This document shows, in pieces, positions 7,630 to 22,073 of a stretch of 64,000 bases of DNA; the stretch's first letter is position 1; each line of letters starts with the position of its first letter. A program made the translations under genes and the position numbers. The notes beneath the pieces are model-generated. The model saw only the letters and a list, made by a program, of their open reading frames with translations. It searched no databases and was not told the origin of the DNA. Origin of the DNA: Streptomyces sp. Ag109_O5-10 (GTDB lineage Bacteria; Actinomycetota; Actinomycetes; Streptomycetales; Streptomycetaceae); the NCBI RefSeq assembly GCF_900105755.1, contig NZ_FNTQ01000001.1:3844001-3908000 (forward strand), given 5' to 3'.

Positions 7630-7645
7630 AAAACACCGCCAAACG

Positions 7646-8572: not shown

Positions 8573-8688
8573 TGGCCGGTAGCGAGCACGAGAAGACGAA
8601 GGATCCGCTGCCGCCGCGTCCGCGTGGGCCGCACCCGTACCCGGCCGGTCACTCGGTCGCGTGCCCCGCGTTCGAGGGGGCGTGCTGA
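8572..8688 (+). CDS. 38-residue proline-rich small protein
   Basis: The start codon overlaps the previous stop and the stop overlaps the next start (TGATG both times). The product begins MAGSEHEKTKDPLPPRPRG and ends with CPAFEGAC, giving two cysteines six residues apart on the His/Pro-rich tail. Small ORFs of this type are common at this position in Streptomyces AICEs. No function is known to me. Confidence 0.55.
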   Translation: MAGSEHEKTKDPLPPRPRGPHPYPAGHSVACPAFEGAC

Positions 8689-8855: not shown

Positions 8856-8879
8856 CACCCACCCGTCACCACCTCTACA

Positions 8880-8929
8880 GCCCCGGTGACCAGCCGTGAT
8901 GGGCGCCGGATCGGATCCGGCCCGGGGCA
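8880..8929 (+). other. tRNA-like acceptor/T-arm structure 1
   Basis: GCCCCGG (8880-8886) pairs perfectly with CCGGGGC (8922-8928), followed by A at the discriminator position. Directly inside, GCCGG (8905-8909) pairs with CCGGC (8917-8921) around a 7-nt loop, ATCGGAT. This copies the 7-bp plus 5-bp stacking of a tRNA acceptor and T arm, but the D and anticodon arms are missing and the loop lacks TTCRA. It lies between two small genes. It may simply be a G/C-rich hairpin. Confidence 0.35.
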
Positions 8930-8968
8930 CGCACGACCACCTGTTCGCAGAGCTGAGAGGAACCCGGC

Positions 8969-9160
8969 ATGGGGAAGATCACTGACCGGATGCGGCGCCA
9001 GGCCGACGAGAACCGGCAGGCCGCCGAATGGGCGCGCGACCGCGGCAACGAGCAGCGGGCCAGGCAGTTGGAGGACCGCGCCGACGAACTGGAATCCGGC
9101 AACGTCACCGACGTCACCGACCAGCTCTCCGCGCTCACCCGCTGGGCCTTCCGCCGCTGA
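8969..9160 (+). CDS. 63-residue charged helical protein
   Basis: ATG 8969 follows GAGAGG (8955-8960). The product is nearly all charged or polar helix (MGKITDRMRRQADENRQAAE, then ARQLEDRADELES), probably a short coiled coil. It sits in the early part of the transfer operon, separated from neighbours by two tRNA-like hairpins. The function is unknown. Confidence 0.65.
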   Translation: MGKITDRMRRQADENRQAAEWARDRGNEQRARQLEDRADELESGNVTDVTDQLSALTRWAFRR

Positions 9161-9172
9161 CCCGCTTCAACC

Positions 9173-9215
9173 GCCCCGATGGTCGCAAGGCTGGGTTCGA
9201 CTCCCGGCCGGGGCA
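9173..9215 (+). other. tRNA-like acceptor/T-arm structure 2
   Basis: GCCCCGA (9173-9179) pairs at six of seven positions with CCGGGGC (9208-9214), followed by A. Inside, CTGGG (9191-9195) and CCCGG (9203-9207) close a canonical T loop TTCGACT. Only 11 bases separate the acceptor strand from the T arm, so the D and anticodon arms are absent. It could be a tRNA 3'-end relic from a former attachment site, a tRNA mimic or a terminator-like hairpin. It starts 12 bases after a stop codon. Confidence 0.45.
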
Positions 9216-9309
9216 CTGTGGCCCGCCGCACTCGGGTGGTGGCCGCCTACGCCGGACCGCCTGTTCCGCGGTCCCTGGCCTCTTCCTTCCCTTCGAGCTG
9301 GGAGCTCCC

Positions 9310-9603
9310 ATGCGTTCCTTCGTGTCTGGCCACCGGGCCGACAGTCCACAGGATTTCCTCGAACTCGCCCTCGGTACGCCCGTCGAACTCTGGCTCGGAG
9401 TGGAGGGCGAGAGCGAGATGGAGCGTGCGGCGCGCATGGACGCGGCCCGCGACATCCTGACCGACCCCGAGTTCGCGAGCGGGCCGGACGACCTGATCCG
9501 GCTGGCCGCGCAGGTCGTCGACGACCATCCGGAGCTGTTCAACGTGGTCCCGCTGCCCCGCCCCACCCGCCGCCGTCCGGTACGCCGGGGGGCCGCGGCA
9601 TGA
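9310..9603 (+). CDS. Hypothetical protein, 97 residues
   Basis: ATG 9310 starts MRSFVSGHRADSPQDFLELA. The body is acidic and helical (ESEMERAARMDAARDILTDP), with a basic C-terminus (PRPTRRRPVRRG). Its last codon overlaps the next start (ATGA), so it is coupled to the following gene. It belongs to the small conserved ORFs between the regulator and the spread genes of AICEs. The function is unknown. Confidence 0.65.
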   Translation: MRSFVSGHRADSPQDFLELALGTPVELWLGVEGESEMERAARMDAARDILTDPEFASGPDDLIRLAAQVVDDHPELFNVVPLPRPTRRRPVRRGAAA

Positions 9604-9926
9604 ACCAGGACCCGACGCTGGACTGCCTGGCCGTGCCGCTGCGCGTGCTGCGCCTGCTCGCCGTGGACTTCGGGCACCTGCCCGCCCCGGACATCGACGT
9701 GTCACCCCTGTACCCGAACCGGTTGCAGCTGAGGTTCCATGACGACCTGGCGCACTTCGAGACCTGGCGGGACGCCCTGGGCATCACCCCGGACGACGTC
9801 GCCTACGGCGAGCAGAGCGGCGACACCAGCGTGCTGAAGGCGTCCGTCGACTACGCGGGCGCCGTGCTGGAACTGACCGGCTTCGGCGACTTACCCGCCC
9901 CCGCGCCGGTCAAGGCCGCGGCCTGA
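9600..9926 (+). CDS. Hypothetical protein, 108 residues
   Basis: ATG 9600 overlaps the previous stop, and its own stop at 9926 overlaps the next start. The protein (MNQDPTLDCLAVPLRVLRLL...) looks like a small alpha/beta domain with an aromatic centre (LRFHDDLAHFETWRDALG) and no catalytic motif. It is part of the coupled small-gene string. The function is unknown. Confidence 0.65.
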   Translation: MNQDPTLDCLAVPLRVLRLLAVDFGHLPAPDIDVSPLYPNRLQLRFHDDLAHFETWRDALGITPDDVAYGEQSGDTSVLKASVDYAGAVLELTGFGDLPAPAPVKAAA

Positions 9927-10294
9927 TGGCGTCGTGGGGCAAGTGCTTCGACCCGAACGGCGCTCGGCACGGTATCCCCACCTACCCCTGGCACTGCGCC
10001 CCCGACGGGCTGGCGACCAGACGGCAGTTACGGGCCCGCGGGCTGCGTCCGGGTGGTCAGCCGGTGGCCGGGCAGATCCTGCGCCCGCGCTACCGGCGCG
10101 GCCCGTTGGTCGCCTATCTCTACCGGCTCGACAAGGCCCTCCCGGTTCGGCCGATGACGCCGGCCAGGCGGCGCGCGCTGGAGTGCGCGATGAAAGCGCG
10201 CCGCACCTGCCCGAAGTGCCGCACCGACGCCGGATACGTCATCCCCGCATCGCTGGGGGTCTGCGTCCCGTGCGCCTACCCCGATGACCAGTAG
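9926..10294 (+). CDS. RRQRL-type zinc-binding protein
   Basis: A 122-residue protein with the signature RRQLRARGLRPGGQP at about residues 32-46 and a C-terminal zinc ribbon, CPKC (about 97-100) and CVPC (about 114-117). This matches the family named RRQRL motif-containing zinc-binding protein, found almost only in actinobacterial mobile elements. The N-terminal part has HGIPTYPWHCAP, which may add a metal or nucleic-acid contact. The molecular role is unknown; a nucleic-acid-binding accessory in transfer is a reasonable guess. It overlaps the previous stop by one base and precedes the spread gene. Confidence 0.75.
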   Translation: MASWGKCFDPNGARHGIPTYPWHCAPDGLATRRQLRARGLRPGGQPVAGQILRPRYRRGPLVAYLYRLDKALPVRPMTPARRRALECAMKARRTCPKCRTDAGYVIPASLGVCVPCAYPDDQ

Positions 10295-10310
10295 AAACGG
10301 AGTGAAAAAC

Positions 10311-11321
10311 ATGGAAGCCAAGCACGTTGCCCGGCGGGCGGCTCACTGGAGCCTGCCGGTCGCGCTGACCGGCATGTCGCTCGGGTGGACCGTCTACGCC
10401 GTGGGGGAGATCCTCTCCCGCCAGGCCCCGACCGCACTCGCCATGACCGTGGCCGGGATCTACGACGCGGTATGGCTGTACGCCCTGGCCATGGAGACCG
10501 CGCACCGCCGCCAGGGCTCCAAAGGAACGCTGCCGGCCACGCTCGGCTGGGTGTTCCTGGTGGCCTCGGTCGGCGTGCTGTTCACCCACGGCCTGATGTA
10601 CGCCACCCCCGCCGTCGCCGTCATCGGCGCCGTCGTGCCCGCCGCCGCCAAGGCCACGCTCATCATGGCGGTGGAACGCGAGTCCACCCGGATCTCCCCT
10701 GCAGCGCAGCAGCAGATCGACGCCGTGCGCAGCGCGACGCGGGACCAGGTGGCCATCGGCCGGGCCGTCACCCGCGCCAAGACGGACCGGCACGAGACCG
10801 CGGCCGTGCTGGAGCGCGAGGAGCGCAAGGCCCGTGGCAAGGCACAGAAGGTCCGCCACGAGGCAGCCGAGGAACTCGCCAAGCTCACCACCGAGCACCC
10901 CGTCGACGACGACGTGCCCGAGGTCCCGGCGCTGTTCTCGGACGACGACCTGGCGCAGGTGCTGGGGCAGTGGACACAGGAGGGTGTGTCCCCGGGTGTG
11001 TCCCCCGTGTCCCCGCAGGTCGGCCCCGTGTCCCCGGCGCCGGAACTCCCCGCCCCGCACGGCGCGGGACACACCCCGCTCGACTGGGCGGCGCTGGCCG
11101 GAGTGGCGGCCGTGGCGGGTGTCGCGACGCCTCAGCCGGGCGAGCCGCTGACCGAGGAACAGCTCACGGTCGTGCTGCGGTGGCTTCGCCACTCGGAGAA
11201 CCCTCCGCTGTCCTACCGCAAGGCCCTGGCCGCGTACCGCGCAGCAGGGTTTCCCGCGAAGGAGGAGCGCGTGCGCAAGGCGTACGCCGCGCTGATCGAC
11301 GCGGAAGACGCACAGCCGTAA
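10311..11321 (+). CDS. Spd-type membrane protein (plasmid spread), 336 residues
   Basis: ATG 10311 is chosen over 10284 because ACGGAG lies at the right distance (about 10298-10303). Four hydrophobic segments fill residues about 8-110 (WSLPVALTGMSLGWTVYAVG, then AGIYDAVWLYALAM, LGWVFLVASVGVLF, AVAVIGAVVPAAAK). A charged helical region follows (VLEREERKARGKAQKVRHEA), then an acidic and Pro-rich linker and a C-terminal ~70-residue domain resembling a small helix-turn-helix (VVLRWLRHSENPPLSYRKAL). Spd proteins help conjugated DNA move across mycelial septa. A short DUF2637/SpdB-like assignment fits the topology but cannot be confirmed without a profile search. Confidence 0.7.
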   Translation: MEAKHVARRAAHWSLPVALTGMSLGWTVYAVGEILSRQAPTALAMTVAGIYDAVWLYALAMETAHRRQGSKGTLPATLGWVFLVASVGVLFTHGLMYATPAVAVIGAVVPAAAKATLIMAVERESTRISPAAQQQIDAVRSATRDQVAIGRAVTRAKTDRHETAAVLEREERKARGKAQKVRHEAAEELAKLTTEHPVDDDVPEVPALFSDDDLAQVLGQWTQEGVSPGVSPVSPQVGPVSPAPELPAPHGAGHTPLDWAALAGVAAVAGVATPQPGEPLTEEQLTVVLRWLRHSENPPLSYRKALAAYRAAGFPAKEERVRKAYAALIDAEDAQP

Positions 11322-11341
11322 CGCGTCCGGCACACACCAAT

Positions 11342-11374
11342 GACGGCCAGCCCACGGGAATTGGGCTGGCCGTC
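11342..11374. terminator. Hairpin after the first spread gene
   Basis: GACGGCCAGCCCA (11342-11354) and its exact complement (11362-11374) form a 13-bp stem with a 7-nt loop, followed by GTTG. It starts 20 bases after the stop and separates the early small-gene block from the large spread/traB block. Confidence 0.75.
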
Positions 11375-11552
11375 GTTGCGACTGCCGGAAGCAGTCGACC
11401 GAACCAGTGAAGCAGACCCGGTGAGCCCCGGCGAGCGGCACCCTCGCAGACCCGCGGGCAGACCCGGCGAGCTGACCCAACCGCTCCACACGGTGGCTCT
11501 CGCGAGCCGCCCGCACCGCGTCTGCGCTGCGGTTTCAGCCCCTCATCCGGCA

Positions 11553-11607
11553 GGCCCGGCCGGCAACTTCCTACGGCCCCGGCCGGGCCCTACTCCCCAA
11601 AAGGAGT
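11553..11607 (+). promoter_or_regulatory. Leader hairpins that may cover a ribosome binding site
   Basis: GGCCCGGCCGG (11553-11563) pairs with CCGGCCGGGCC (11579-11589). Next, ACTCC (11592-11596) can pair with GGAGT (11603-11607), which contains the AAGGAG used by the gene at 11617. The leader could therefore limit translation of the membrane protein upstream of traB. Confidence 0.4.
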
Positions 11608-11616
11608 GCTCCCAGC

Positions 11617-13185
11617 ATGACGGAACTCAGCACCGAGCCGGTAGCCATCGAGGCTGCCCCGACCACACCCCCGACACCACCCGACACCGCGCCGACCACG
11701 GCGAAGGACAGCAGGGAGGTAGAGCACACCCCGGGTGGGTGGCCTGTCGTGCCGCTCGCCCTGACCGGGGCGAACAGCACCGTCGGTATGGTCGCCGCCG
11801 CTTCCCTGGCGGGCGGCCCGATCGCCGCCATGGTCGCCGCTACCGGCATGGTGGTCCTCGGCACGGTCGCCGCCACCCGCTCCCGCAAGCCCAACGCCCG
11901 CCGCGTCACCCGCAGGCAAGCGGCCCGCGCCGCCGGCCGTGCTGCTGCCCGCAGCGCAGGCCTGCGCCACGGCGGCTTGACCGGCGGCGGGTCCGGGACC
12001 CGTTCGGCCGGCTCCCGTGCCAGTCGTGCGGGTGGCAGGTCGGGTGGTGTGCCGGGCCAGCACCGCCGTAGCAGTGGCCCGGCCGCCCGCCCCGCCAGCA
12101 CCGCCACCGGCTCGAAGACCCGCGGCACGACCGGTCCGGGTGCGTCCAAGCACTCGGCCGGTGGCGCGGGCAGGGTCGGGCAGATACGCGCCCTGCGCGC
12201 CGCGCAGCAGGCCGCCACCGGGACCCGTGCCGGACAGCGCACACAGACCACCAACGCACGGCGTGCGGTCGCCGACGCGCGCCGCAACGCCAACACCCCC
12301 GCCCGCAAGTCCGGGGTGGGCAAGCGTGCCGGTCTGACCGGCCGCCTGCTGGGCGGCACCGCCCGCAAAGCCCGCACCGCGCGCGATGCGGCGATCGCCA
12401 AACAGCGTGCTAAGCGCGACGCCAAGGCGGGCGCCACGGTGGCCGCGCAGCGGGCCGCGGTCCGCAAGGCGCCCGCGCGCAAGGCCGCCCGCAAGGCACT
12501 GCGCCGGTCCGCGGCCCGCTTCCACGGGCGACGCCTGCTCGCTGCCCTGCTCGCCCTGCCCGTGGGCCTGCTGGGCTGCCTGACCACCCCGATTGGCCGC
12601 AAGTTCGACATCCCGTGGCTGATGTACCCCGGCCGCCGCCTGTACTGGGCCATGGTCCGCACCGCCACGCAACAGCGCGCCGAACGCGACGAGATCACCC
12701 GCGAGGACCTGCGCGAGCAGGAAGCCGCCGCGGACGCGGAAGCCACCGAGGACGGCACCGAGGGCATCGCGGACAGTGTCGAACGGCCCGCCGCCAAGGT
12801 CCCCACCCCCACGATTCCCGAGGTCAGTGAAGGAGAGTACGTGTCCGGTTTCCGGTTCGAAGAGGCCGCTGCCGAGATGGAGCAGGCCGCCAACGCCTAC
12901 GAGCCCGAGAACGCCATGGAGATCCTCGCCATGGTCGAAGGGCTCCCGGCCGCGCTGAGCAGCGTGGCCAACGTGATGAAGATCCTCGCCGAGCGCTCCG
13001 ACAACGAGTTCCCGCTGGAGAAGGAGATCGCGGACGGCTTCAACGACATCTTCGGCGCCCTCATGAGCGCGGTTGCGGTCGCCGAGGACATGGGCCCGCT
13101 GTTCCGGCAGGTCCACGAGCAGGACATCGCCCGCCACGAGGACCCCCGCAACGGCCACGACGCTGAGAAGGGCTGGAACGTCTGA
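11617..13185 (+). CDS. Spd-type membrane protein with basic linker, 522 residues
   Basis: ATG 11617 follows AAGGAG. After an acidic Pro/Thr-rich start, hydrophobic segments lie at about residues 45-62 (VVPLALTGANSTVGMVAAAS) and 66-88. A ~210-residue Arg/Ala/Gly-rich stretch with scores of basic residues follows, then another hydrophobic segment (LLAALLALPVGLLGCL, about 308-325) and an acidic C-terminal domain with a helical end (MEILAMVEGLPAALSSVANV). The basic linker is likely to bind DNA. Its stop is 1 base before the traB start, typical of spdB2 partners of TraB, which are thought to form a septal pore with it. Confidence 0.7.
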   Translation: MTELSTEPVAIEAAPTTPPTPPDTAPTTAKDSREVEHTPGGWPVVPLALTGANSTVGMVAAASLAGGPIAAMVAATGMVVLGTVAATRSRKPNARRVTRRQAARAAGRAAARSAGLRHGGLTGGGSGTRSAGSRASRAGGRSGGVPGQHRRSSGPAARPASTATGSKTRGTTGPGASKHSAGGAGRVGQIRALRAAQQAATGTRAGQRTQTTNARRAVADARRNANTPARKSGVGKRAGLTGRLLGGTARKARTARDAAIAKQRAKRDAKAGATVAAQRAAVRKAPARKAARKALRRSAARFHGRRLLAALLALPVGLLGCLTTPIGRKFDIPWLMYPGRRLYWAMVRTATQQRAERDEITREDLREQEAAADAEATEDGTEGIADSVERPAAKVPTPTIPEVSEGEYVSGFRFEEAAAEMEQAANAYEPENAMEILAMVEGLPAALSSVANVMKILAERSDNEFPLEKEIADGFNDIFGALMSAVAVAEDMGPLFRQVHEQDIARHEDPRNGHDAEKGWNV

Positions 13186-13186
13186 G

Positions 13187-15301
13187 ATGAGCAGCACCGC
13201 CACCGCCAAGAAGCAGCAGAGCAGTGGCCCGGTGCTGGACTGGGCGGCCGGTCACGGACCCGTGACCGGCGCCCTGTCCGCGACCACCGGAGCCTTCGCC
13301 ATCGCCACCACCGGCGCCGCCACCCACATGCCCCCCGGCTGGGCCCTCGCCGTAGGTGCCGCGGGCGCCCTCGGACACACCGTCGTGGGCCTGCGGGTAC
13401 GCAACGCCGGCCGCACCCTGGCCACCCGCGCCGCATCCTGGCTCATCGGGGCGGGCTGGACCACCTGGGCCATGACCCACGGCCCGCTCACGTGGGCCGC
13501 GCTCGGATCCCTCGCCACCATCGGCGTCGGCATCGGCGCCGCCGCCCGATCCTCCGCCCTGTTCGAGGAGGCACGGGAAGAGGAGGCACTCGCCGCCGAA
13601 CATCGCCAGATCGCCCGCGAGCTGTCCGCAGAGCGCCGCGCGATCGCCGCGGAATGGGTCGAGCGCATCCAGCGGGTGTGCTCCCTCACCGTGCGCGTGC
13701 TCGGAGTGGAGATGTGGGAGACCGGCGCCGGCTACTCCATCGACGCCGAACTCCCTCCCGGCGGCGCCACCTGGAACAAGATCGCTGCCGAGTCGCCGCG
13801 ACTGTCTGCGGACGCCCGGTTGCCGCACGGCTGCACCGCCACCGCCTCCCCGGGCATCCACCAGGGGCGCGTCATCATTGACGTGACCACGGTCAACGTC
13901 CTGGAGGAGGAACGGACTTACCCGGCCGACTACAGCGTCCTGTCCCTGCACACGGGCATCCCGTGGGGCTACCGCACGAACGCGGAGAGCATCCTCGCCT
14001 ACCTGCGCGAGCAGTGCGCGTTGGTGGTCGGGCCGACTGGGTCGGGCAAGACGAACATGGTCCACGCGATCCTCGCTGGCTTCGCCCGCGCCGAAGACGT
14101 CCTGACCTGGGTGATCGACCTGAACGCCGGATCGGCCGGCCTGCCCTGGGTGCTGCCCGTCCTCAACCAGGAGATCGTGCGGGAGGACGGCAAGACCGTA
14201 CGGCCCGGCATCGACTGGCTCGCCGGCACGTTCGATGAGGCCATGGCCATGCTGGACACGGCCGTGCGGGTCGCCAAGCACCGCAAGACCAGCTATCAGG
14301 ACCTGCTCGCCAAGGCCAACACCGACCTGCTGCCGATCAGCCCCAAGATTCCTCAGATCATGCTGGTCATCGACGAGGGCGCGGAGATCCTGGCCAGCCC
14401 GGACCGGCAGATGCGCAAGCTCGCTGAGAAGATCCTCGAAGTCATCCGGATCGCCCGCGCCATGGGCCTGCGCACCGTGCTGACCGCGCTCGGGGCGACC
14501 GGCAGCGTGCTCGGCAACCTGATGATCCGCCGGGAAGCCAAGGTGCGCGTCGCGCTGACCGGCGGGGAGACCGAGGGCATGGACCTGGGCAAGATGTTCC
14601 CCGGCTCGCGCGGACTGCGCGTGGACCAGGCCCCGTTCAAGGGCGCCGGGTTCATGGGCACCCCCGAGTCCCCGGCCGCGCTGTTCAAAGCCTGGCGCAT
14701 CCTGCCGAACCAGATCCGGGACATCATCGCCGCTACCTCCGACCGGCACCCCGTCCTCGATGACGTGTCGGTCAAGGCTGCCGGGGCCGCCTACATCCGC
14801 CGCTGGGACAGCGAGCGCACCGCATGGATGCGCGAGCAGATCGTCCCCGACGACGAGCAGACGGACACCTCGGGCGGGGAGGCGCTGCGGCTGTCCGCGT
14901 TCCGCGACACGCAGGCGGCCGGACCTGAGATGGCGGAAGACGAGATGCTGCGCCGCTTCCGCGAGGAGATCGACGCACAGTTCGCCACCACCCCCGACCC
15001 GCACACCCCCGACACCCCGCCGCCCGCGGCGGGCGGGCTGAACCTGTCGGCACTGCGGGGCGAGCATGACAGCCCCGCGCAACAGGTTGCGCTCGCCCTG
15101 CTGCTCGCCGCCGGCCCGGACGGCACCGGCGCATCCGCCATCGCCCGCGCCCTCGCCGACGAGTACGGCACCACCCGTCAGACGGTGGTCGGCTGGCTCA
15201 AGACGTGGGTCAAGGACGGCACCGCCGTCCGCGTCGGGGAGGGCACCAAAGCCCGCTACGTCCACCACCGCCACGCACCCCAACAACCCCCCGAACACTG
15301 A
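13187..15301 (+). CDS. traB: TraB, FtsK/SpoIIIE-type conjugative DNA translocase
   Basis: A 704-residue hexameric-motor type ATPase that moves double-stranded DNA between mycelial compartments, the hallmark of Streptomyces conjugation. Two hydrophobic segments lie in the first ~120 residues. The FtsK-like motor follows, with Walker A GPTGSGKT at about residues 282-289 and Walker B IMLVIDEGAEIL at about 390-401. The last ~70 residues form a winged helix (ASAIARALADEYGTTRQTVVGW) corresponding to the domain that reads the clt repeats in known TraB proteins. A GACAAG repeat array begins four bases after the stop. It is translationally linked to the upstream membrane gene. Confidence 0.93.
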   Translation: MSSTATAKKQQSSGPVLDWAAGHGPVTGALSATTGAFAIATTGAATHMPPGWALAVGAAGALGHTVVGLRVRNAGRTLATRAASWLIGAGWTTWAMTHGPLTWAALGSLATIGVGIGAAARSSALFEEAREEEALAAEHRQIARELSAERRAIAAEWVERIQRVCSLTVRVLGVEMWETGAGYSIDAELPPGGATWNKIAAESPRLSADARLPHGCTATASPGIHQGRVIIDVTTVNVLEEERTYPADYSVLSLHTGIPWGYRTNAESILAYLREQCALVVGPTGSGKTNMVHAILAGFARAEDVLTWVIDLNAGSAGLPWVLPVLNQEIVREDGKTVRPGIDWLAGTFDEAMAMLDTAVRVAKHRKTSYQDLLAKANTDLLPISPKIPQIMLVIDEGAEILASPDRQMRKLAEKILEVIRIARAMGLRTVLTALGATGSVLGNLMIRREAKVRVALTGGETEGMDLGKMFPGSRGLRVDQAPFKGAGFMGTPESPAALFKAWRILPNQIRDIIAATSDRHPVLDDVSVKAAGAAYIRRWDSERTAWMREQIVPDDEQTDTSGGEALRLSAFRDTQAAGPEMAEDEMLRRFREEIDAQFATTPDPHTPDTPPPAAGGLNLSALRGEHDSPAQQVALALLLAAGPDGTGASAIARALADEYGTTRQTVVGWLKTWVKDGTAVRVGEGTKARYVHHRHAPQQPPEH

Positions 15302-15304
15302 TCA

Positions 15305-15451
15305 CTTGTCGCTTGTCACCCTGCCCCGACACATGCCGCCACGGCCGCCCCCAGGGGGCCGGAAACGGCTTGTGAGCTGGGAGGCGACAAGCGACAAGAC
15401 AAGACAAGCGACAAGCCGCACGACAAGACAGACGACAAGCAACGCGACAAG
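15305..15451. repeat. Candidate clt transfer locus: GACAAG repeat array
   Basis: Eight GACAAG copies on the plus strand begin at 15386, 15393, 15398, 15403, 15410, 15422, 15434 and 15446, and two inverted copies (CTTGTC) begin at 15305 and 15312. The last four plus copies are spaced exactly 12 bp apart. The array is non-coding and lies directly behind traB. In pSVH1 and related plasmids TraB recognises short direct repeats in a clt locus beside traB, so this is the obvious recognition site here, with a sequence different from the GACCCGGA type. Confidence 0.8.
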
Positions 15452-15513
15452 CCACCACACGGGCAGCACCACGGAAACGGGTGCTGCCCGCCTCGCTTTC
15501 CGGGAGGCCGCTC

Positions 15514-15705
15514 GTGATCGTGACCCTGTCCGCCGTCGCACTCTTCGGAGTGCTCGCCCTCGTCCTGCTGCGCGGCCGCTACCTCGGACCGTTCAGCGCC
15601 CTCGTGCTCTTCCTGTTCGGGTTCTTCACCGCCGGCACCGGCGCCGCCGGACCCGTCCGCGCCATGTGCCTCGCGCTCGCCGACGCCGCCCGCCACCTCA
15701 CCTGA
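15514..15705 (+). CDS. Small membrane protein, 63 residues
   Basis: GTG 15514 is preferred because GGGAGG lies at 15502-15507; the ATG at 15481 has no good site. The protein has two hydrophobic segments (VIVTLSAVALFGVLALVLL and FSALVLFLFGFFTAG) and a short polar tail. Small proteins of this kind accompany traB in AICEs and are grouped with the spread genes. The function is inferred from position only. Confidence 0.6.
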   Translation: MIVTLSAVALFGVLALVLLRGRYLGPFSALVLFLFGFFTAGTGAAGPVRAMCLALADAARHLT

Positions 15706-15726
15706 CCCCCGCCAGGAGCCACCGCC

Positions 15727-16230
15727 ATGCCCGAGTACGAGAACAGTGCGGCCTGGCAGCCGCGGATGACCGACGCCGAAGCCACCGCCGAAGCCCGCCG
15801 CATCATCGCCGACGCCTACCGGCCCACCCACCAGATGCCGACCGCCTACCGCGACACCAGCCCCCTGCCCGCCTACGGCACCACCCCGCCCGTCCCGCAG
15901 CCCGACCGGCGCATTGTCCCGGCATGGGCCGCGGGCACCGCCGTGGCCGGTATCGGCGTCGGCGCCACCTGCGTCGGACTCGGGTGCGGGATCTGGCTCG
16001 CCTGCCAGGGCTTCGCCGCCGTCACGCTCACCTCGGTCCTGTTCGTCACCCTCCCGATCGCTGGCGTGGCCGCGGTCGTCGCCGCCGTCGGATCGGCCCT
16101 GCGCTCCCTCCGAGGAGTCCGCACGGAGACCCACCACCACTACGCCGGGCCGGTCCGGCAGGAGACCAACACGATCACCACGCCCGCGTACGGGTTGATT
16201 GCCCGCAACCGCAACGAACTCCGCACCTGA
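15727..16230 (+). CDS. Small membrane protein, 167 residues, Spd-like position
   Basis: ATG 15727 follows CAGGAG (15714-15719). The N-terminal ~60 residues are soluble and Pro/Tyr-rich. Two hydrophobic segments lie at about 66-88 (AGTAVAGIGVGATCVGLGCG) and 92-122 (GFAAVTLTSVLFVTLPIAGV). A His-containing tail (THHHYAGP) is cytoplasmic or exposed. The position next to traB suggests a spread or membrane-complex role. No family is recognised. The next gene begins 14 bases downstream. Confidence 0.65.
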   Translation: MPEYENSAAWQPRMTDAEATAEARRIIADAYRPTHQMPTAYRDTSPLPAYGTTPPVPQPDRRIVPAWAAGTAVAGIGVGATCVGLGCGIWLACQGFAAVTLTSVLFVTLPIAGVAAVVAAVGSALRSLRGVRTETHHHYAGPVRQETNTITTPAYGLIARNRNELRT

Positions 16231-16244
16231 CCCCAGGAGCCGCC

Positions 16245-17039
16245 TTGCGCTTCTACCTGACCACCCACAAACGCCACTGGGTCCGGCTGACCCGGGTGCC
16301 GCTGTTCCTGAAGTCCGAGCACTTCGTGAAGGCGGCCAAACTGACTCCCGCGCTTGGTCCGTATGCCGTGGACTCCGGCGGGTTCTCGGAGCTCCAGCGC
16401 CACGGCGAGTGGACCCGCACCCCCCGCCAGTACGTGGACGACCTGCGCCGCATCTGGGAATGCGTCGGCCCCTACGACTGGGCAGCCCCGCAGGACTGGA
16501 TGTGCGAAGACCTCATCGTCCACGGTGGCACGGCCGGACCGAACGTGTTCGCCGGTACCCATCTCAGCGTGGAAGAGCACCAGCGCCGCACGGTGGCCAA
16601 CTTCCTCGAACTGCGCTCACGCGCCCCGGACCTGCGCATCGCGCCCGTCCTTCAAGGCGACAACGTGCCCGCCTACGAACGGTGCGCGGAGCTGTACGAG
16701 AAGGCCGGCGTGGACCTGCGGGCCGAACCGGTCGTCGGACTGGGCTCGGTATGCCGGCTCCAGTCCACGCAGAAGGGCGCCGCGATCGTCACCGCGATGG
16801 CCGCGCACGGCTTCAAACTGCACGGCTTCGGCTTCAAGACCCTGGGACTGGAGAAGGTGGGCCACCTGCTCGCCTCCGCGGACTCCGCGGCCTGGAGCTA
16901 TCACGCCCGCAAGAGACCCCCGATCGCTGGCCACACGCACAAGAACTGCGCCAACTGCCTGGAATACGCCCTGAGCTGGCGAACCCGCGTCCTGGCAGCC
17001 ATACCCGCCTGGCAACAGCCCCTGCTCAACGCTGCCTAA
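16245..17039 (+). CDS. Queuine tRNA-ribosyltransferase-like protein (DpdA-type, DUF7221)
   Basis: A 264-residue protein starting at TTG 16245 behind AGGAG (16235-16239). It keeps TGT/DpdA-type landmarks: VDSGGFSEL (about residues 43-51, base-recognition Asp), APQDWM, a QGD motif in IAPVLQGDN, the VVGLGSVCRL strand, ADSAAWSYHAR with a candidate catalytic Asp, and a C-terminal CANC. TGT enzymes exchange guanine for a deazapurine in tRNA; DpdA does so in DNA. No deazapurine synthesis genes (queC, D, E, folE) and no dpdB/C are in the window, so the substrate is open. The enzyme may modify element DNA or a tRNA using host precursors. Related proteins occur in Streptomyces AICEs. Confidence 0.8.
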   Translation: MRFYLTTHKRHWVRLTRVPLFLKSEHFVKAAKLTPALGPYAVDSGGFSELQRHGEWTRTPRQYVDDLRRIWECVGPYDWAAPQDWMCEDLIVHGGTAGPNVFAGTHLSVEEHQRRTVANFLELRSRAPDLRIAPVLQGDNVPAYERCAELYEKAGVDLRAEPVVGLGSVCRLQSTQKGAAIVTAMAAHGFKLHGFGFKTLGLEKVGHLLASADSAAWSYHARKRPPIAGHTHKNCANCLEYALSWRTRVLAAIPAWQQPLLNAA

Positions 17040-17062
17040 CTCACATCCAAGGAGACATCAGC

Positions 17063-17518
17063 ATGTCGTTCGGAGAGACCCCGATCACCCTCGTCGGCAA
17101 CCTGACCGACGACCCCGAGCTGAAGTTCACCGAAGGCGGCGCCGCGCTCGCCAAGTTCACCATCGCCGTCACCCCGCGCAGCTTCGACCGCACGTCGAAC
17201 CAGTGGAAGGACGGCACCACCGCCTTCTACCGCTGCGCCGCCTGGCGCACCCTCGCCGAACACGTCGCCGAATCCCTGACCAAGGGCTCACGCGTCGTCG
17301 CCACCGGCCGAATGCGCCAACACGACTGGACCACCGACCAGAACGAGAAGCGCTCCATGCTCGCCGTCGAAATCGACGACATCGGCGCGTCCGTCCGCTT
17401 CACCACCGTCACGGTCAACGCCAAGCGCGCTACCCAGAACGGCCCGGCCGGCGACAACCCGTGGGACAAGACCAGCGCCGCAGCCGGAGCCCAGTTCAGC
17501 GAAGAGCCCCCGTTCTAA
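17063..17518 (+). CDS. ssb: Single-stranded DNA-binding protein
   Basis: A 151-residue SSB starting at ATG 17063 after AAGGAG. The OB-fold core spans about residues 5-110 (ITLVGNLTDDPELKFTEGGA ... FYRCAAWRTLAEHVAESLTKG ... GRMRQHDW), and the C-terminus ends in the acidic-aromatic tail SEEPPF that recruits replication partners. It is shorter than the chromosomal SSB because the Gly-rich linker is reduced. It sits in the replication block upstream of the Prim-Pol gene, fitting a role in rolling-circle-like or replicative stages of the element. Confidence 0.93.
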   Translation: MSFGETPITLVGNLTDDPELKFTEGGAALAKFTIAVTPRSFDRTSNQWKDGTTAFYRCAAWRTLAEHVAESLTKGSRVVATGRMRQHDWTTDQNEKRSMLAVEIDDIGASVRFTTVTVNAKRATQNGPAGDNPWDKTSAAAGAQFSEEPPF

Positions 17519-17607
17519 CCACGCCCGGGGCGGTCGCCCGATCTCGCCAAAGACACGCGACCGCCCCGGCCAACCAGTCCACAACAGACCTGTTGGAGGA
17601 ATCCAGC

Positions 17608-18576
17608 ATGACCCACCTCACCGTCGTCCCGAAAGCGGACGACCGCAGCACAGACCAGCCGGTGACCGTGGCCCTGGAAAGCCTGCACCTGCTCGCCGCC
17701 GCCCTGCTGTCCGCTGAGCGCGGCTGGCCCGTCATCCCGCTGCACCCTGGAGCCAAACGCCCCTCCGGGCACCCCGAACGGGACTGCCCCCGAGCAGGCC
17801 GGTGCGCGGGCGGGCACCGCACCCCGGAACAGCGCGCCACCACCGACCCCGACCTGATCCACACGGCATGGGCCAGCCGCCCGTACAACGTGGGGATCGC
17901 GACCGGCCCGGCCGGTCTGCTCGTGGTCGACCTGGACGTGCCGAAGACAAAAGAGCAGGAAGGAGCGCCTGACGGCGCCACTACCTTCAACGCGCTCTGC
18001 GAGCGCGCCGGCCAGCCCTTCCCGCTCACCTACCGGGTGCGGACCCCCAGCGGGGGCCAGCACCTGTACTTCACCACCCCACCCGGCGTCCGGCTGAAGT
18101 GCACGGTGAAGAAGCTCGGTCCGCACATCGACACCCGGGCCTGGGGCGGCTACGTCGTCGCCGCGGGCAGCACCACCCCCCAAGGCACCTATGACGTCGC
18201 GGAAGCCGCCGTCGTGGCGCCCCTGCCCGGATGGCTGGCCGCCCTGCTCACCGAACCCGTGAAACCGGCGCAGGCGCCCGCCCTGGCGCCGGTCAGGGAC
18301 GGCACCAAGGCCGCCCGGACCGCGCTGGAACGCGAATGCGCGGTCGTGGCCGCCGCCAGCGAGGGCGGGCCCGTCGGCCGCAACAACACGCTGTACCGCA
18401 GCGCCTGCAAGGTGGCCCGGTTCGTGGCCTGGGGACACATCTCCCGGCACACGGTCGAAGAGGCAATCCAGGCGGCGGGGGAATCGACGGGCCTGTCGGC
18501 TGCCGAGTGCCGCACGACGATCCGCAGCGCCATGGAGTGGATCACCGCCCACGCCACACCGCGGGAAGCCGTATGA
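17608..18576 (+). CDS. Bifunctional DNA primase/polymerase (Prim-Pol)
   Basis: A 322-residue protein starting at ATG 17608 after TTGGAGGA. Prim-Pol landmarks are GWPVIPLHPGAKRP (about residues 39-52), the metal-binding VVDLDVPK (about 107-114) and the SGGQHLYF motif (about 147-154). A C-terminal helical region (NNTLYRSACKVARFVAWG ... AAECRTTIRSAMEW) follows. This is the replication initiator or primase of RepPP-type AICEs. Its stop overlaps the start of a small ORF. It works with the SSB just upstream and the DUF3631 AAA-like gene downstream. Confidence 0.9.
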   Translation: MTHLTVVPKADDRSTDQPVTVALESLHLLAAALLSAERGWPVIPLHPGAKRPSGHPERDCPRAGRCAGGHRTPEQRATTDPDLIHTAWASRPYNVGIATGPAGLLVVDLDVPKTKEQEGAPDGATTFNALCERAGQPFPLTYRVRTPSGGQHLYFTTPPGVRLKCTVKKLGPHIDTRAWGGYVVAAGSTTPQGTYDVAEAAVVAPLPGWLAALLTEPVKPAQAPALAPVRDGTKAARTALERECAVVAAASEGGPVGRNNTLYRSACKVARFVAWGHISRHTVEEAIQAAGESTGLSAAECRTTIRSAMEWITAHATPREAV

Positions 18577-18770
18577 ACGCCGCCCGCTCCCCCCACCTGG
18601 ATTGCCTCCCTCCCAACCCCTACGGCCCGCGCTGCGCGCTGCTCGCTCGCAGCGTGAGGACCGTGGGCGGCCGACAGAAGGTCGCCCGAAGGGCGTCCTT
18701 TCAGCTCTTCCCCCCGACTCACCGCACCGTGCGCCTGCTGCCCCACTTCGAAGGGAGGACCGCCGCATGA
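18573..18770 (+). CDS. 65-residue small protein between Prim-Pol and DUF3631 genes
   Basis: Both ends overlap neighbours: ATG 18573 sits on the Prim-Pol stop and TGA 18768-18770 overlaps the next ATG at 18767. The product (MNAARSPHLDCLPPNPYGPR...) is basic and Arg-rich with no motif. It may be a genuine coupled gene or only a translational bridge that brings ribosomes to the next start. Support comes from the double ATGA overlap alone. Confidence 0.4.
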   Translation: MNAARSPHLDCLPPNPYGPRCALLARSVRTVGGRQKVARRASFQLFPPTHRTVRLLPHFEGRTAA

Positions 18771-20032
18771 CCAGCACCACCCCACCCGAGCCGTCCATCG
18801 ACGGCGCCGCCCTGCTTGACGAGGTCGAAGCCTTCCACCGCCGCTTCAACGTTTTCCCCACCGAGCACGCCTACGTCGCCGTCGCGTTGTGGGACGCGCA
18901 CGCGCACCTGATGGACGCGCTTGACAGCACCGCCCGCATCGCCTTCCTCAGCCCCGAACCGGGCTCGGGGAAGTCACGGGCACTGGAGATCATCGAGACC
19001 CTCACCCCGCGCTCCGCGACCACCGTCAACGCCTCCGCCAACGCCTTGTTCCGGCTCGTCTCGGCTGACGAGGGCACCCCAACGCTGCTGTTCGACGAGA
19101 TCGACACCGTCTTCGGCCCGAAAGCAGGCGGGAACGAGGAAGTCCGCGGGTTCCTCAACTCCGGCTACCGGCGCGGCGCCAAGTCCCTGCGCTGCATCGG
19201 GGACGGATCCGACCAGAAAGCCGCGTTCCTCCCGTCGTTCTGCGCGGTCGCGATGGCCGGACTCGGCTCGCTTCCGGACACGATCCTGACCCGCTCCGTC
19301 ATCATCCGCATGCGCAAGAAGGCGCCCAACGAGAAGTGCGAGCCCTACCGGCGCCGCGTCCACGAGAAGCAGGGCCACGCCCTGCGCGACCGGCTCGCCG
19401 ACTGGGCAGCCCCCCTGCACGACCAGATCGCGAACGCCTGGCCCGACATGCCCGAAGGAGTCACCGACCGGCCGGCCGACGTGTGGGAACCCCTGCTCGC
19501 GGTGGCCGACGCGGCCGGCGGGCACTGGCCCGAACGCGCCCGCGCCGCCTGCGTCGCCCTCATCAAGGCCGCACGGGAAGGCGACGAGGCCTCCCTCGGG
19601 GTGCGGCTGCTGACCGACCTGCGCGACCGCGTGTTCTGCGGAGTCGACAAGCTGCCCACCGCCGCCATCCTCGAAGTCCTCCTCAGCATCGACGACGCGC
19701 CGTGGGCCGACATGAGCGAGGACGGGCAGCAGATCAAGCCGCTCACCGCCCGCGCCATGGCCAAGCTCCTGAGCCAATACGTCCGCCCCGACAACACCCC
19801 GATCAAGCCCAAGGGAATCCGCGTCGGCAGCACCACCCCGAAGGGCTACTACGCGGAGGACCTCAGCGACGCGTGGGCCCGCTACTGCCCCCCTCCCCCC
19901 GGAGAATCCGCAACATCCGCAACAGCCGCAACACCGCAGGTCAACGAGGGTGAATCTGTGGCGGATACCCCTTCCGAGACCCGCCACATGTTCGCGGAAT
20001 CCGACACACGCACCCTTCGCAGCGTCGGCTGA
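18767..20032 (+). CDS. DUF3631 protein, AAA-like helicase partner of Prim-Pol
   Basis: A 421-residue protein starting at ATG 18767 after GGGAGG. Walker A is SPEPGSGKSR (about residues 64-73) and Walker B is LLFDEIDTVFG (about 107-117). A sensor-like DTILTRSVIIRM follows near 168-179. The C-terminal third (DLRDRVFCGVDKLPTAAILE ... GYYAEDLSDAWARYC) is the DUF3631 module. Such proteins accompany Prim-Pol replication genes and probably load or act as the replicative helicase. The final ~55 residues are disordered, and their DNA carries ATCCGCAACA iterons, so the end of the gene doubles as a repeat region. Confidence 0.85.
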   Translation: MTSTTPPEPSIDGAALLDEVEAFHRRFNVFPTEHAYVAVALWDAHAHLMDALDSTARIAFLSPEPGSGKSRALEIIETLTPRSATTVNASANALFRLVSADEGTPTLLFDEIDTVFGPKAGGNEEVRGFLNSGYRRGAKSLRCIGDGSDQKAAFLPSFCAVAMAGLGSLPDTILTRSVIIRMRKKAPNEKCEPYRRRVHEKQGHALRDRLADWAAPLHDQIANAWPDMPEGVTDRPADVWEPLLAVADAAGGHWPERARAACVALIKAAREGDEASLGVRLLTDLRDRVFCGVDKLPTAAILEVLLSIDDAPWADMSEDGQQIKPLTARAMAKLLSQYVRPDNTPIKPKGIRVGSTTPKGYYAEDLSDAWARYCPPPPGESATSATAATPQVNEGESVADTPSETRHMFAESDTRTLRSVG

Positions 20033-20158
20033 CCAGCTACACCCCACGGTGCCGCCGCGTGCCCCGCGCGGCGGCACCTATCCGCAACAGAAACGGCATC
20101 CGCCACAGATTCAAGCCGCTGACCAGCAATGTTGCGGCGTGGCGGATGTTGCGGATTC
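19904..20158. repeat. Nested inverted repeats with ATCCGCAACA iterons; candidate origin or Xis site
   Basis: The outer pair is GAATCCGCAACATCCGC (19904-19920) with its exact 17-bp complement at 20142-20158. The inner pair is GAATCTGTGGCGGAT (19952-19966) with its exact 15-bp complement at 20098-20112. ATCCGCAACA occurs directly at 19906, 19915 and 20080 and inverted at 20147-20156, with one-off variants at 19925 and 20130. The centre holds the 20048-20078 hairpin. Such symmetry flanking a replication gene fits an origin, or excisionase/regulator binding upstream of xis. Confidence 0.75.
20048..20078. terminator. Hairpin after the DUF3631 gene
   Basis: GGTGCCGCCGCG (20048-20059) and its exact complement (20067-20078) form a 12-bp stem with a 7-nt loop, 16 bases after the stop. 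No T run follows. It lies at the centre of the nested inverted repeats, so it could also be an extruded origin hairpin. Confidence 0.65.
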
Positions 20159-20188
20159 CCCAGAAGGCCAAGACGAGGAGTCGCAACG

Positions 20189-20377
20189 ATGGCTCGCCCC
20201 AAGATGCTCAAGCTCCCCGAAGTCCTCGAAGAGATCGAGATGAGCCGCGCCGCCTTCTACCGCATGCGTGCCCGCGGCAAGGCGCCCAAGCTCATCAAGC
20301 TCCCCAATGGTCAACTCCGTTGTCGGCGCTCCGACCTGGACGCGTGGTGGGCGTCCATGGAAGACACCGCCGCCTAA
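20189..20377 (+). CDS. xis: Excisionase (Xis), small winged-helix DNA-binding protein
   Basis: A 62-residue protein starting at ATG 20189 after GACGAGGAG. It has the excisionase/MerR-like pattern: a helix-turn-helix (LPEVLEEIEMSRAAFYRMRA) then a beta wing (GKAPKLIKLPNGQLRCRRSD) and closing helix (LDAWWASMED). It is placed directly before the integrase gene, where it would bend attachment-site DNA for excision. A hairpin separates it from int, so the two may be unequal in expression. The binding targets may include the repeats just upstream. Confidence 0.88.
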   Translation: MARPKMLKLPEVLEEIEMSRAAFYRMRARGKAPKLIKLPNGQLRCRRSDLDAWWASMEDTAA

Positions 20378-20401
20378 CTCCTCCCGGTACCCACGAGACA
20401 C

Positions 20402-20427
20402 GAGGGGCCCGCTTTAGCGGGCCCCTC
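20402..20427. terminator. Hairpin between xis and int
   Basis: GAGGGGCCCGC (20402-20412) pairs exactly with GCGGGCCCCTC (20417-20427) around TTTA. It ends 10 bases before the integrase start and sits where a ribosome binding site is expected. It may terminate xis transcripts or lower int translation. Confidence 0.75.
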
Positions 20428-20437
20428 TGGAGTTCGC

Positions 20438-21817
20438 ATGTCACTGACCTACGACGTTCGCCTCTACGCCATCGAGGTCCGCAAGGACCGCCCGAAGCCA
20501 TATCGCCTCCGTTGGCTGGTCGGGGAGCGCAAGCACTCCAAGAGCTACACGCTCAAAGCGCAGGCTGAGGGCCGCCGTTCGGAACTGATGTCCGCTGTGC
20601 GGCGCGGCGACCAGTTCGACGAGGAGACGGGGCTTCCTGTCTCCGAGCTGCGCGCGAGACTGGGCTCCGTCACCTGGTACGAGCACACCCGTACGTACGT
20701 CGGCCGCAAGTGGGCCTTGGCGCCGGCCAAGTCGCGCAAGAACTACGCCGACGCGCTCGCCACCATCACCCCCGCGCTCGTGAAGACGAAGGCCGGCATG
20801 CCCGATCCGGCGCTTCTGCGACGCGCTCTCTACGGGTGGGCGTACAACCGGAACCGCTGGAACGAGACTGCACCGGACGACGTGGCCCGCGCCCTGGAGT
20901 GGATCGCCAAGCACTCCATGCCGGTTTCTGCGCTGGAAGACCCGGCCACCGTCCGACTGGCCTTGGACGCTCTCGCCCTGAGACTGGACGGGAAGGAGGC
21001 TTCGCCGCGTACCGCGAAGCGAAAGCGGGCGTGCCTGAGCGACGTTCTCGGACTGGCTGTCGAAGAGCAGTACTTCAGCATGCCGGTCAACCCGCTCTCG
21101 GCCGTGAAGTGGACGGCTCCGAAGTCAGTTGAGGCGGTGGACCCCGAGAGCGTCGCCAACCCTCGCCAGGTTCGCGCGCTACTGGCGGGAGTCCGCGAGC
21201 AGGGGGCGCGCGGGCGGCACCTGGAAGCGTTCTTCGGGTGCCTGTACTACGCGGCCATGCGTCCGGCTGAGGCTGCCGGACTGCGCGCGGATCAGTGCCA
21301 CCTCCCGGAGACGGGATGGGGGATGCTCACCCTCCGGCAGGGCATCGTCCGGGCAGGGCGGAGCTGGACGAACGACGGGGCGGCACACGAGACCCGCCAC
21401 CTGAAAGCGCGCGCCAAGAAGGACTCCCGTCCGGTGCCGATCCCGCCGCACTTCGTCCGCATGCTGCGGGAGCACATCGCCGCACACGGTACGGCGCCGG
21501 ACGGCCGGCTGTTCAGGACAAGCCGCAACGGCCTACTTCAGGAGACCGGCTATGGGGAGGTGTGGGCAAAGGCTCGACAAAATGTCCTGAGCGAGGCGGA
21601 GACGTCCTCACTGCTCGCCCGCCGCCCCTACGACCTGCGGCACGCCGGTGTGTCGTTCTGGCTCAGTTCCGGCGTGGACGCCATGGAGTGCGCCCGGCGG
21701 GCAGGGCACAGCATCGCAGTCCTGCACAAGGTGTACGCCAAGGTGCTGGACCAGACCCGGGAGCGTGCCAACAGTCGGATCGATGCGGCACTTCGGGAGT
21801 GGAATGGGCCCGAGTGA
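20438..21817 (+). CDS. int: Site-specific tyrosine recombinase (integrase)
   Basis: A 459-residue integrase. An N-terminal arm-binding region (YRLRWLVGERKHSKSYTLKA) and a SAM-like core-binding domain precede the catalytic domain. The first catalytic Arg is in AAMRPAEAAGLR (about residue 272), the box II Arg-His in PYDLRHAGVS (about 398-404, with Tyr where many enzymes have His), the third in AGHSIAVLHK, and the nucleophile is Tyr in KVYAKVL (about 432). It recombines the element with the tRNA-Tyr gene, whose 3' end lies 174 bp beyond the stop. The lack of a clear ribosome binding site and the hairpin upstream suggest limited translation. Confidence 0.95.
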   Translation: MSLTYDVRLYAIEVRKDRPKPYRLRWLVGERKHSKSYTLKAQAEGRRSELMSAVRRGDQFDEETGLPVSELRARLGSVTWYEHTRTYVGRKWALAPAKSRKNYADALATITPALVKTKAGMPDPALLRRALYGWAYNRNRWNETAPDDVARALEWIAKHSMPVSALEDPATVRLALDALALRLDGKEASPRTAKRKRACLSDVLGLAVEEQYFSMPVNPLSAVKWTAPKSVEAVDPESVANPRQVRALLAGVREQGARGRHLEAFFGCLYYAAMRPAEAAGLRADQCHLPETGWGMLTLRQGIVRAGRSWTNDGAAHETRHLKARAKKDSRPVPIPPHFVRMLREHIAAHGTAPDGRLFRTSRNGLLQETGYGEVWAKARQNVLSEAETSSLLARRPYDLRHAGVSFWLSSGVDAMECARRAGHSIAVLHKVYAKVLDQTRERANSRIDAALREWNGPE

Positions 21818-21939
21818 TCATGCTCACCCCCGGGGGACACCTGGGGGACACGCACTGACCGACAGTGAGATTTGGGCGGTACGGGGTGAGACACGTCCAC
21901 GTCCCGTCCACGCCGAATCGAACGGGGCCGATCAACGAG

Positions 21940-21982
21940 AAACCCCCTCTGACCAGGCTAAGAACCTGGTCAGAGGGGGTTT
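21940..21982. terminator. Bidirectional terminator of int and tRNA-Tyr
   Basis: AAACCCCCTCTGACCAGG (21940-21957) and its exact complement (21965-21982) form an 18-bp stem with a 7-nt loop. It ends 9 bases from the tRNA 3' end and would stop the minus-strand tRNA transcript and the plus-strand integrase transcript. Confidence 0.88.
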
Positions 21983-21991
21983 TCCCCAGTG

Positions 21992-22040
21992 TGGCGGCGC
22001 CAGGATTCGAACCTGGGAAGGCTGAGCCGGCAGATTTACA
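21992..22040. other. Probable attachment site (attR) in the tRNA-Tyr 3' half
   Basis: The tRNA gene is complete here although the integrase lies against its 3' end, so the element must carry the 3' portion that restores it. The crossover probably lies in the anticodon-to-3' segment, as for SLP1. The exact core cannot be set without the left junction, which is not in the window. Confidence 0.55.
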
Positions 22041-22073
22041 GTCTGCTCCCTTTGGCCGCTCGGGCACACCGCC
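21992..22073 (-). tRNA. tRNA-Tyr (anticodon GTA)
   Basis: Read on the minus strand, GGCGGTG (22073-22067) pairs with CGCCGCC (ending 21993) with one G-T pair, followed by discriminator A at 21992. The anticodon loop CTGTAAA gives GTA (complement of 22037-22039). A long variable arm (class II) and a perfect T arm CCAGG-TTCGAAT-CCTGG are present. No CCA is encoded. The length of 82 nt fits bacterial tRNA-Tyr. Confidence 0.97.

Follow-up and report, generated by a model that had tools for sequence, protein, structure and literature searches.

AICEs (actinomycete integrative and conjugative elements) carry genes between antibiotic-producing bacteria. The available parts of PMC3218068 equate DUF3631 with RepAM, the initiator of pMEA300, find RepAM immediately adjoining Prim-Pol in 12 of 40 Prim-Pol AICEs, and, with reference to te Poele et al. 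2008, class RepAM among the predicted initiators of rolling-circle replication. In SaPI and SCCmec islands, the initiator is a helicase whose C-terminal domain attaches to iterons immediately downstream of the gene that encodes it (PMC7581432 and PMC6092414, in their accessible text). Neither an iteron array nor an origin is described for RepAM/DUF3631 replicons in the literature searched, as far as its accessible parts go, and older subscription papers on pMEA300 may differ. Here, in a 64-kb window (the whole stretch of DNA that was analyzed) with a conjugative element of Streptomyces, we found a mirrored iteron array at the 3′ end of a DUF3631 gene. Judged from sequence, the array is probably (roughly 80%) the replication origin of the excised element, on which DUF3631 would load at the iterons and Prim-Pol would prime.

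The genes of the element are arranged in the order Tra (FtsK-like), SSB, Prim-Pol, DUF3631, array, xis, integrase, and tRNA-Tyr (Table 1). The AICE make-up of integrase, FtsK-like Tra, and Rep/Prim-Pol is therefore present, with the Int and Tra matches being significant and below the curated cut-offs. The DUF3631 frame is open from a TTG at 18602, and a further in-frame ATG of xis lies at 20129, within the array. The tRNA-Tyr gene (window 21991-22073), located 173 bp past int, was the sole Rfam match at gathering scores, and a search of the left 12.5 kb (1-12500) for another att copy gave none, the best match being 18 of 24 bp. Between xis and int there is a perfect 12-bp inverted repeat with a 2-bp loop (20402-20427) and no T run after it. 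Between int and tRNA-Tyr, a 43-bp near-palindrome (21940-21982), probably a terminator, contains CTGACCAGG/CCTGGTCAG, the word of the array's box. Tra, Prim-Pol, DUF3631, and the array also occur together with a helix-turn-helix gene and an integrase on two circular plasmid records (NZ_CP108827.1 and NZ_CP108973.1), which fit, without being proof of, an excised replicating form.

Table 1. Coordinates of genes, codons, and array features in the window
Feature	Position	Strand	Evidence or remark
FtsK/SpoIIIE-like Tra	13073..15301	+	Pfam PF01580 E 4.9e-5, just below curated cut-off
Single-strand binding protein (SSB) gene	17075..17518	+	Pfam PF00436 E 7.5e-27
Prim-Pol ORF, proposed primase, start uncertain	17203..18576	+	Pfam PF09250 E 2.2e-43; domain residues 168-344
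DUF3631 (RepAM-type) gene	18767..20032, ATG used here	+	Pfam PF12307 E 3.5e-60
Codon of R352, proposed reader of last iteron base (R: A/G; K: C)	19820..19822	+	
Codon of T357, proposed reader of base N (T: A/C; F: C; V/I/L: T)	19835..19837	+	
Left triple, direct iterons L1-L3	19906..19933, starts 19906, 19915, 19924	+	In-frame SAT-SAT-AAT codons
Left core box GCAGGTCA	19936..19943	+	Sequence, consensus, enrichment
Inner inverted iteron of left half (TGTGGCGGAT)	19957..19966	-	
Degenerate iteron ACCCGCCACA	19979..19988	+	
Central 12-bp hairpin, arms 20048-20059 / 20067-20078	20048..20078	.	Clade-specific, stem sequence varies
Two direct iterons of right half	20080..20107, starts 20080 and 20098, 18 bp apart	+	
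Right core box TGACCAGC, mirror of left box	20120..20127	-	Sequence, consensus, enrichment
Right triple, inverted iterons R1-R3	20130..20156, starts 20130, 20138, 20147	-	
xis (HTH_17/AlpA-like), likely ATG	20189..20377	+	Query used began one codon earlier, 20186
Tyrosine integrase	20438..21817	+	Pfam PF00589 E 1.2e-4, below curated cut-off

The array is a mirror-symmetric set of 9-bp iterons (CCGCNACN) that begins within the 3′-terminal part of the DUF3631 (RepAM) gene and stops 32 bp short of xis. Three direct iterons are followed by a GCAGGTCA box and an inverted iteron, and this order is then repeated as its mirror image. The initial annotation of this interval had listed inverted pairs of 17, 15, and 12 bp, nested in one another. 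The nesting, the perfect 17-bp pair (19904-19920/20142-20158), and the 12-bp pair were borne out, and the 15-bp pair turned out to be a perfect pair of 16 bp (19951-19966/20098-20113). Its account of a repeat occurring three times directly and once inverted was likewise correct, since ATCCGCAACA is found exactly at 19906, 19915, and 20080 (+) and at 20147 (-), and these are its only exact copies in the 64-kb window. So was the placement of the outer left arm within the coding end of DUF3631, the ORF of which ends at 20032. Beyond that earlier description, we recognized about 10 iteron-like copies, the mirror geometry, and one box (GCAGGTCA/TGACCAGC) per half. Copies of ATCCGCAACA with one mismatch are located in the array at 19924 (+), 19957 (-), and 20098 (+), and elsewhere in the window at 22202, 58121, and 62046; copies with two mismatches are located in the array at 19979 and 19999 (+) and at 20130 and 20138 (-). 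The CCGCMACRTCCGCMACR pattern occurs twice in the 9.46-Mb genome, both times within the array.

The array repeats are genuine and exceed chance. In 300 dinucleotide shuffles of the 301-bp segment 19880-20180, an inverted pair of at least 15 bp never appeared, the longest being 12 bp, and none of 300 such shuffles produced four copies of the 10-mer. When exact 7-mers were counted, CCGCAAC was present six times in 420 bp, a number reached by 0 of 100 shuffles and by 3 of 110 control stretches from the element and its flanks; by this count the window array is not unique because it mixes A and C iterons. The DnaA-box consensus is TTGTCCACA/TTATCCACA as it is commonly given, and no site within one mismatch of either form exists in 19881-20180.

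Conserved symmetry among relatives was the check that the initial annotation had itself proposed. A scan of GTDB genomes yielded 222 relatives, of which the best 80 were kept, and the set was extended with full-length loci drawn from samples at phylum and class level and their extra regions, from plasmid records, and from a single phage record. Five partial DUF3631 loci (L002, L099, L100, L104, and L105) stand outside the resulting 148. One of them, L002, is a second DUF3631 match in the window's own genome (C1:5361432-5361593) covering model positions 1-54 only; its open frame of 691 aa shares roughly 40% identity with the window protein across residues 10-228, and it would be a divergent or rearranged DUF3631 copy. 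A record named Pseudomonas phage Phipami28 (L108, PV029746.1) has a DUF3631 gene noted as "Rv2655c" with TGTCGCGG repeats at its 3′ end, and its organism label merits a check.

Repeats past the DUF3631 gene proved to be general. In the 420 bp past the end of the C-terminal domain, the best exact 7-mer occurred in a mean of 7.9 copies versus 2.5 in shuffles. None of 100 shuffles came up to that count in any of the 81 close loci (the window plus the 80 best relatives out of 222). The same held for 46 of 65 other DUF3631 loci, from which L147, too short for the test, and L001, the window's own copy, were excluded. In the other 19 of the 65 (L084, L086, L091, L093-L096, L098, L115, L121, L125, L126, L133, L138, L140, L143, L144, L150, and L151), at least 1 of 100 shuffles reached the count. 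The same statistic lay above every control window in 63 of 81 close and 43 of 65 other loci, the window itself not being among them. Iteron sequences vary by lineage (CCGCAAC, CCGCCAC, CCGCTAC, AGCCGTA, CCGTCCC, CGGAACA, CGTGACA, and more), and yet direct left and inverted right copies recur in many lineages despite the changed iteron sequence.

The geometry was then compared among the 94 loci of the CCGCNAC type, 68 of which keep the whole pattern, in agreement with the symmetry anticipated earlier. All 94 have a right half with two direct iterons 17-19 bp apart and an inverted one 30/31 bp on, and the right triple is spaced 8/9 bp in 90. On the left, the triple is spaced 9-9 bp in 70 loci and the step from direct to inverted iterons measures 30-32 bp in 86; the array centre is variable in length. 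At least two iterons lie inside the DUF3631 3′ end in 93 of the 94. The box recurs in both spacers, as GCAGGTCA in the left one and mirrored in the right one, and at least two CWGGTCA boxes are present in 77 of 94 arrays versus 2.8% of control windows. Among other DUF3631 loci, at least one CWGGTCA was found in 31 of 52 (versus 17%) and at least two in 15 of 52 (versus 1.5%). Moreover, in all 69 loci with both triples, base N is identical between L1, which is coding, and R3, which is non-coding.

The array centre behaves differently. A central stem of at least 9 bp was found in 44 of 58 scored loci of classes A and C, with many different stem sequences, versus 1 of 32 loci of the T classes, and the central 12-bp hairpin was therefore ruled out as the organizing feature. 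In the window, the hairpin begins 16 bp past the DUF3631 stop and may be a terminator. An AT-rich centre was not found across 83 loci (30.1% AT versus 29.8% for the loci as a whole); the spacer from the last direct iteron to the right triple is above its locus in AT content in 74 of the 83.

Iteron distance correlated with DUF3631 distance (Mantel r 0.64; 3403 pairs from 83 loci) and not with the distances of Tra (0.08), Prim-Pol (0.06), Xis (0.09), Int (0.06), and SSB (-0.12), which were detected in 39, 74, 33, 33, and 34 of the 83 loci, respectively. Iterons stayed similar in pairs with alike DUF3631 and swapped partner genes, and they were not similar in the few pairs with alike partner genes and different DUF3631. 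Among 471 pairs with DUF3631 more than 85% alike, identity stood at 0.95-0.98 across the last iterons and fell to about 0.3 once 20 bp past them, in an ungapped profile in which small insertions sharpen the apparent drop. The DUF3631 correlation and the end of homology after the array indicated, therefore, that the array belongs to the DUF3631 module, around which xis-int is exchanged. Adjacency alone could link array type to DUF3631, and co-transfer of a short stretch of DNA could yield part of the tie, residue 357 being about 70 bp from the first iteron. The residue-to-base code described below, which bears in part on the question of linkage, covers chemically similar, different residues (V, I, and L), counter to pure co-transfer.

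Residue 357 was the best DUF3631 column for base N of CCGC-N-AC in the 94 loci: T occurred with A (mixed with C) in 46 of 46, F with C in 13 of 13, and V, I, or L with T in 35 of 35. This rule was fixed on these training loci before new loci were retrieved. The hold-out comprised 139 loci (L153-L291) among the matches listed; 6 without the wing motif by the pattern used, 24 that were at least 98% DNA-identical to training loci, and 23 with Q357, which have few CCGCNAC copies, were excluded, leaving 86. L287 is without a CCGCNAC array, and L242 was unclassed for the last base. New loci were assigned to class A with at least two iterons carrying A, to class C with more than 80% C, and to class T with more than 70% T. 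They belong to the same genus and are mostly 78-96% DNA-identical to a training locus.

Among the matches listed, T went with A in 15 of 15 new loci, F with C in 7 of 7, and V or I with T in 63 of 63, such that residue 357 predicted base N in 94/94 training and 85/85 new scorable loci. Residue 352 predicted the last iteron base (R: A/G; K: C) in 94/94 training and, among the matches listed, 84/84 new scorable loci. When the mapping learned in training was applied to the new loci, again among the matches listed, the next columns scored 81/85 versus 85/85 for residue 357 and 78 versus 84/84 for residue 352. Over all loci, residue 357 made 0 errors in 179 (next best column, 22), and residue 352 made 0 in 178 (next best, 9). 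A tree built from the AAA+ part places 17 changes at base N and 9 at the last base; on its well-supported branches, independent switches number at least 5, 4, and 6 (sign tests, p 0.06, 0.13, and 0.03). The joint switching of residues and bases along this tree is a consequence of the zero errors and does not count as additional proof.

In three of the four iteron classes (A, C, and TA), base N mostly falls at the wobble position of an Ala codon, within a peptide that for the most part remains S/A-A-T; in class TC, this left-half DNA is mostly translated in a different frame. Given this mostly synonymous left-half variation and the frame change, selection seems to act on the array DNA. Among 69 loci compared with the window array (19906-20156), those with T357 have a two-tiered array, with A mostly at L1, R1, and R3 and C mostly at R2 and the inner iterons; the tiers may be sites of high and low strength. 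Another common DUF3631 type of Streptomyces (L083, L111, and L153-L180) has Q357 and 0-2 CCGCNAC copies, and the best repeat in L083 and L111 is TGCCGTC, with other spacings.

A reading of far lineages, anchored on the box, gave a recurring 8-mer in 20 of 77 loci examined, with T and A together in 3 of 5, V and T in 2 of 2, and Q and C in 6 of 9, plus single cases of R with G, S with A, A with A, and K with C. One of the V cases, L087, has other letters at two further sites. Made after the rule was known, these readings are suggestive. The CGGTTACA iterons of L287 also have T at N with V357, and the code appears to extend to L087 (47% identical) and L287, and perhaps to Q with C and R with G at residue 357.

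The DUF3631 protein is laid out as an N-terminal AAA+ ATPase, the DUF3631 domain, a winged-helix-like C-terminal domain, and an iteron-coding tail. Its Walker A (SPEPGSGKS) and Walker B (LLFDEID) motifs are invariant in 59 sequences. Structures were modeled from alignment A1 (59 of 81 DUF3631 sequences) and alignment A2 (65 of 81 C-terminal domains). The full model was modest (mean pLDDT of 66 with 59 sequences). It best matched MCM AAA+ domains (Z 13.2, 4.5 A, 235 residues), with further matches to the staphylococcal-island protein PriRep1 (7pds_A; E 1.7e-4), ASFV PrimPol, and vaccinia D5. The protein thus models as a predicted MCM-like AAA+ ATPase; NCBIfam, PHROGs, and a PDB sequence search returned nothing for DUF3631. 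For the isolated C-terminal domain, no match in the PDB reached significance: the top Foldseek rows were forkhead winged-helix proteins at E 0.44 or above, with unrelated rows among them, and the best VIA-align rows were EF-hand proteins (Z of at most 5.4). "Winged helix" is accordingly used here as a prediction based on the order of secondary-structure elements. In the predicted domain, residues 352 and 357 lie in the stretch separating the final two strand segments, which is where the wing would be.

These data can be set against other roles for the array. The initial annotation had offered, beside an origin, a regulated switch for excision, that is, an operator of xis-int bound by Xis or DUF3631. 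The right triple does end 32 bp before the likely xis ATG, and Xis is an AlpA-like DNA-binding protein, but array type is uncorrelated with Xis (r 0.09) and Int (0.06), homology stops just past the array, and at least two iterons sit within the upstream gene in 93 of 94 loci. Furthermore, no match to this Xis was found in 49 of 80 loci (the 80 best relatives out of 222; one of these 49, L003, lies on a contig that breaks off about 300 bp past the DUF3631 stop), and the array is present in all of them. A scan of 19850-20500, which misses other promoter types, gave no sigma-70-like promoter. We therefore set the switch aside as quite unlikely, a side effect of the array on xis transcription being possible. 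Recognition repeats are also a feature of the clt loci of Streptomyces TraB plasmids, and the array consists of short repeated sites in a conjugative element whose FtsK-like Tra looks winged-helix-like at its C terminus when the translation is inspected by eye. A clt locus recognized by Tra is nevertheless highly improbable, as iteron type and Tra are uncorrelated (r 0.08, partial 0.01, 39 loci), DUF3631 residues predict the iteron, and 22 pairs with DUF3631 more than 85% alike and Tra less than 55% alike have a mean iteron distance of 0.44 versus 1.86 overall.

The remaining alternatives accept DUF3631 as the partner of the array. According to the accessible text of PMC3218068, RCR initiation is predicted for RepAM proteins, which have putative pC194-like nick sites, and the array might then be a double-strand origin for rolling-circle replication, nicked by RepAM. 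This is very unlikely, since the protein is modeled as an MCM-like AAA+ ATPase and its Walker motifs are invariant. AAA+ proteins are the best among the fold matches listed, and a lack of other matches there says nothing against an HUH/tyrosine nickase fold. The pC194-type nick word, CTTGWTA as usually given, occurs in 0 of 94 arrays and is absent from window 11501-22000. HUH motifs sit on a strand; the H45-A46-H47 of DUF3631, although invariant, is at the end of, and just past, a predicted helix. Iterons can also act in the copy control of iteron plasmids, and evidence of recognition is no proof of initiation. The array could then be a copy-control or incompatibility site bound by DUF3631, with the true origin elsewhere. 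We regard this as unlikely, since the window has no other exact copy of the 10-mer and the genome no other tandem pattern, and the site is directly 3′ of an AAA+ initiator-like gene, as in the phage-inducible island origins described in the available parts of PMC6092414 and PMC7581432.

Taken together, the array with its symmetry and largely fixed geometry, its tie to the lineage of the initiator-like DUF3631, the residue-to-base matching, and the predicted AAA+ fold strongly support the candidate replication origin first suggested in the initial annotation. From these we infer DNA binding, helicase loading, origin activity, and priming, which could proceed as follows. The winged-helix-like C-terminal domain of DUF3631 would bind the iterons, with wing residue 352 reading the last iteron base and residue 357 reading base N. 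Each mirrored half-array would gather one helicase ring, such that two rings would face each other head to head over the centre. Single strands exposed by ATP-driven opening would then be primed by the adjacent Prim-Pol, and a host polymerase would finish. On balance, we lean toward a wing code in DUF3631 that shifts initiator and mirror-image cis-origin together, by which compatibility groups could be predicted, or reprogrammed, from two residues, and which would bring an island-type origin, an MCM-like helicase on mirrored iterons, into conjugative elements. Such a code would allow simple prediction of the elements that compete for the same initiator.

The RepAM replicons of AICEs such as pMEA300 resemble this locus in having DUF3631 as RepAM and in the adjacency of Prim-Pol; they differ in that a rolling-circle mode is predicted and that neither an iteron array nor recognition residues are named in the accessible text of PMC3218068. 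The SCCmec Cch2 origin, as described in the available parts of PMC7581432, is alike in its initiator helicase, its direct repeats downstream of the initiator's own gene, binding through the C-terminal domain, and a primase activity beside it. It is unlike in its three 5-nt iterons, in belonging to the D5/primase C-terminal helicase family, and in a primase formed by an A-family polymerase pair. The rep-ori of SaPIs and other phage-inducible islands comes closest in layout, with a primase gene, a helicase-type initiator, and two iteron sets directly 3′ (PMC6092414 and PMC7581432, accessible parts), and the corresponding features here are an AAA+ helicase-type initiator by fold prediction, Prim-Pol directly upstream, and two opposed iteron sets 3′. 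The islands mapped by PMC6092414, in its accessible text, have an AT-rich stretch between the sets, which this array lacks, and we place the array beside rather than among island-type origins because that AT-rich centre was looked for and not found. Unlike the island replicons, moreover, the element is conjugative and not a phage satellite, its initiator is of the DUF3631 family, the left iteron set is inside coding sequence, and each half has a GCAGGTCA box and an inverted inner iteron. By analogy, our best reading is that the array works like the island origins.
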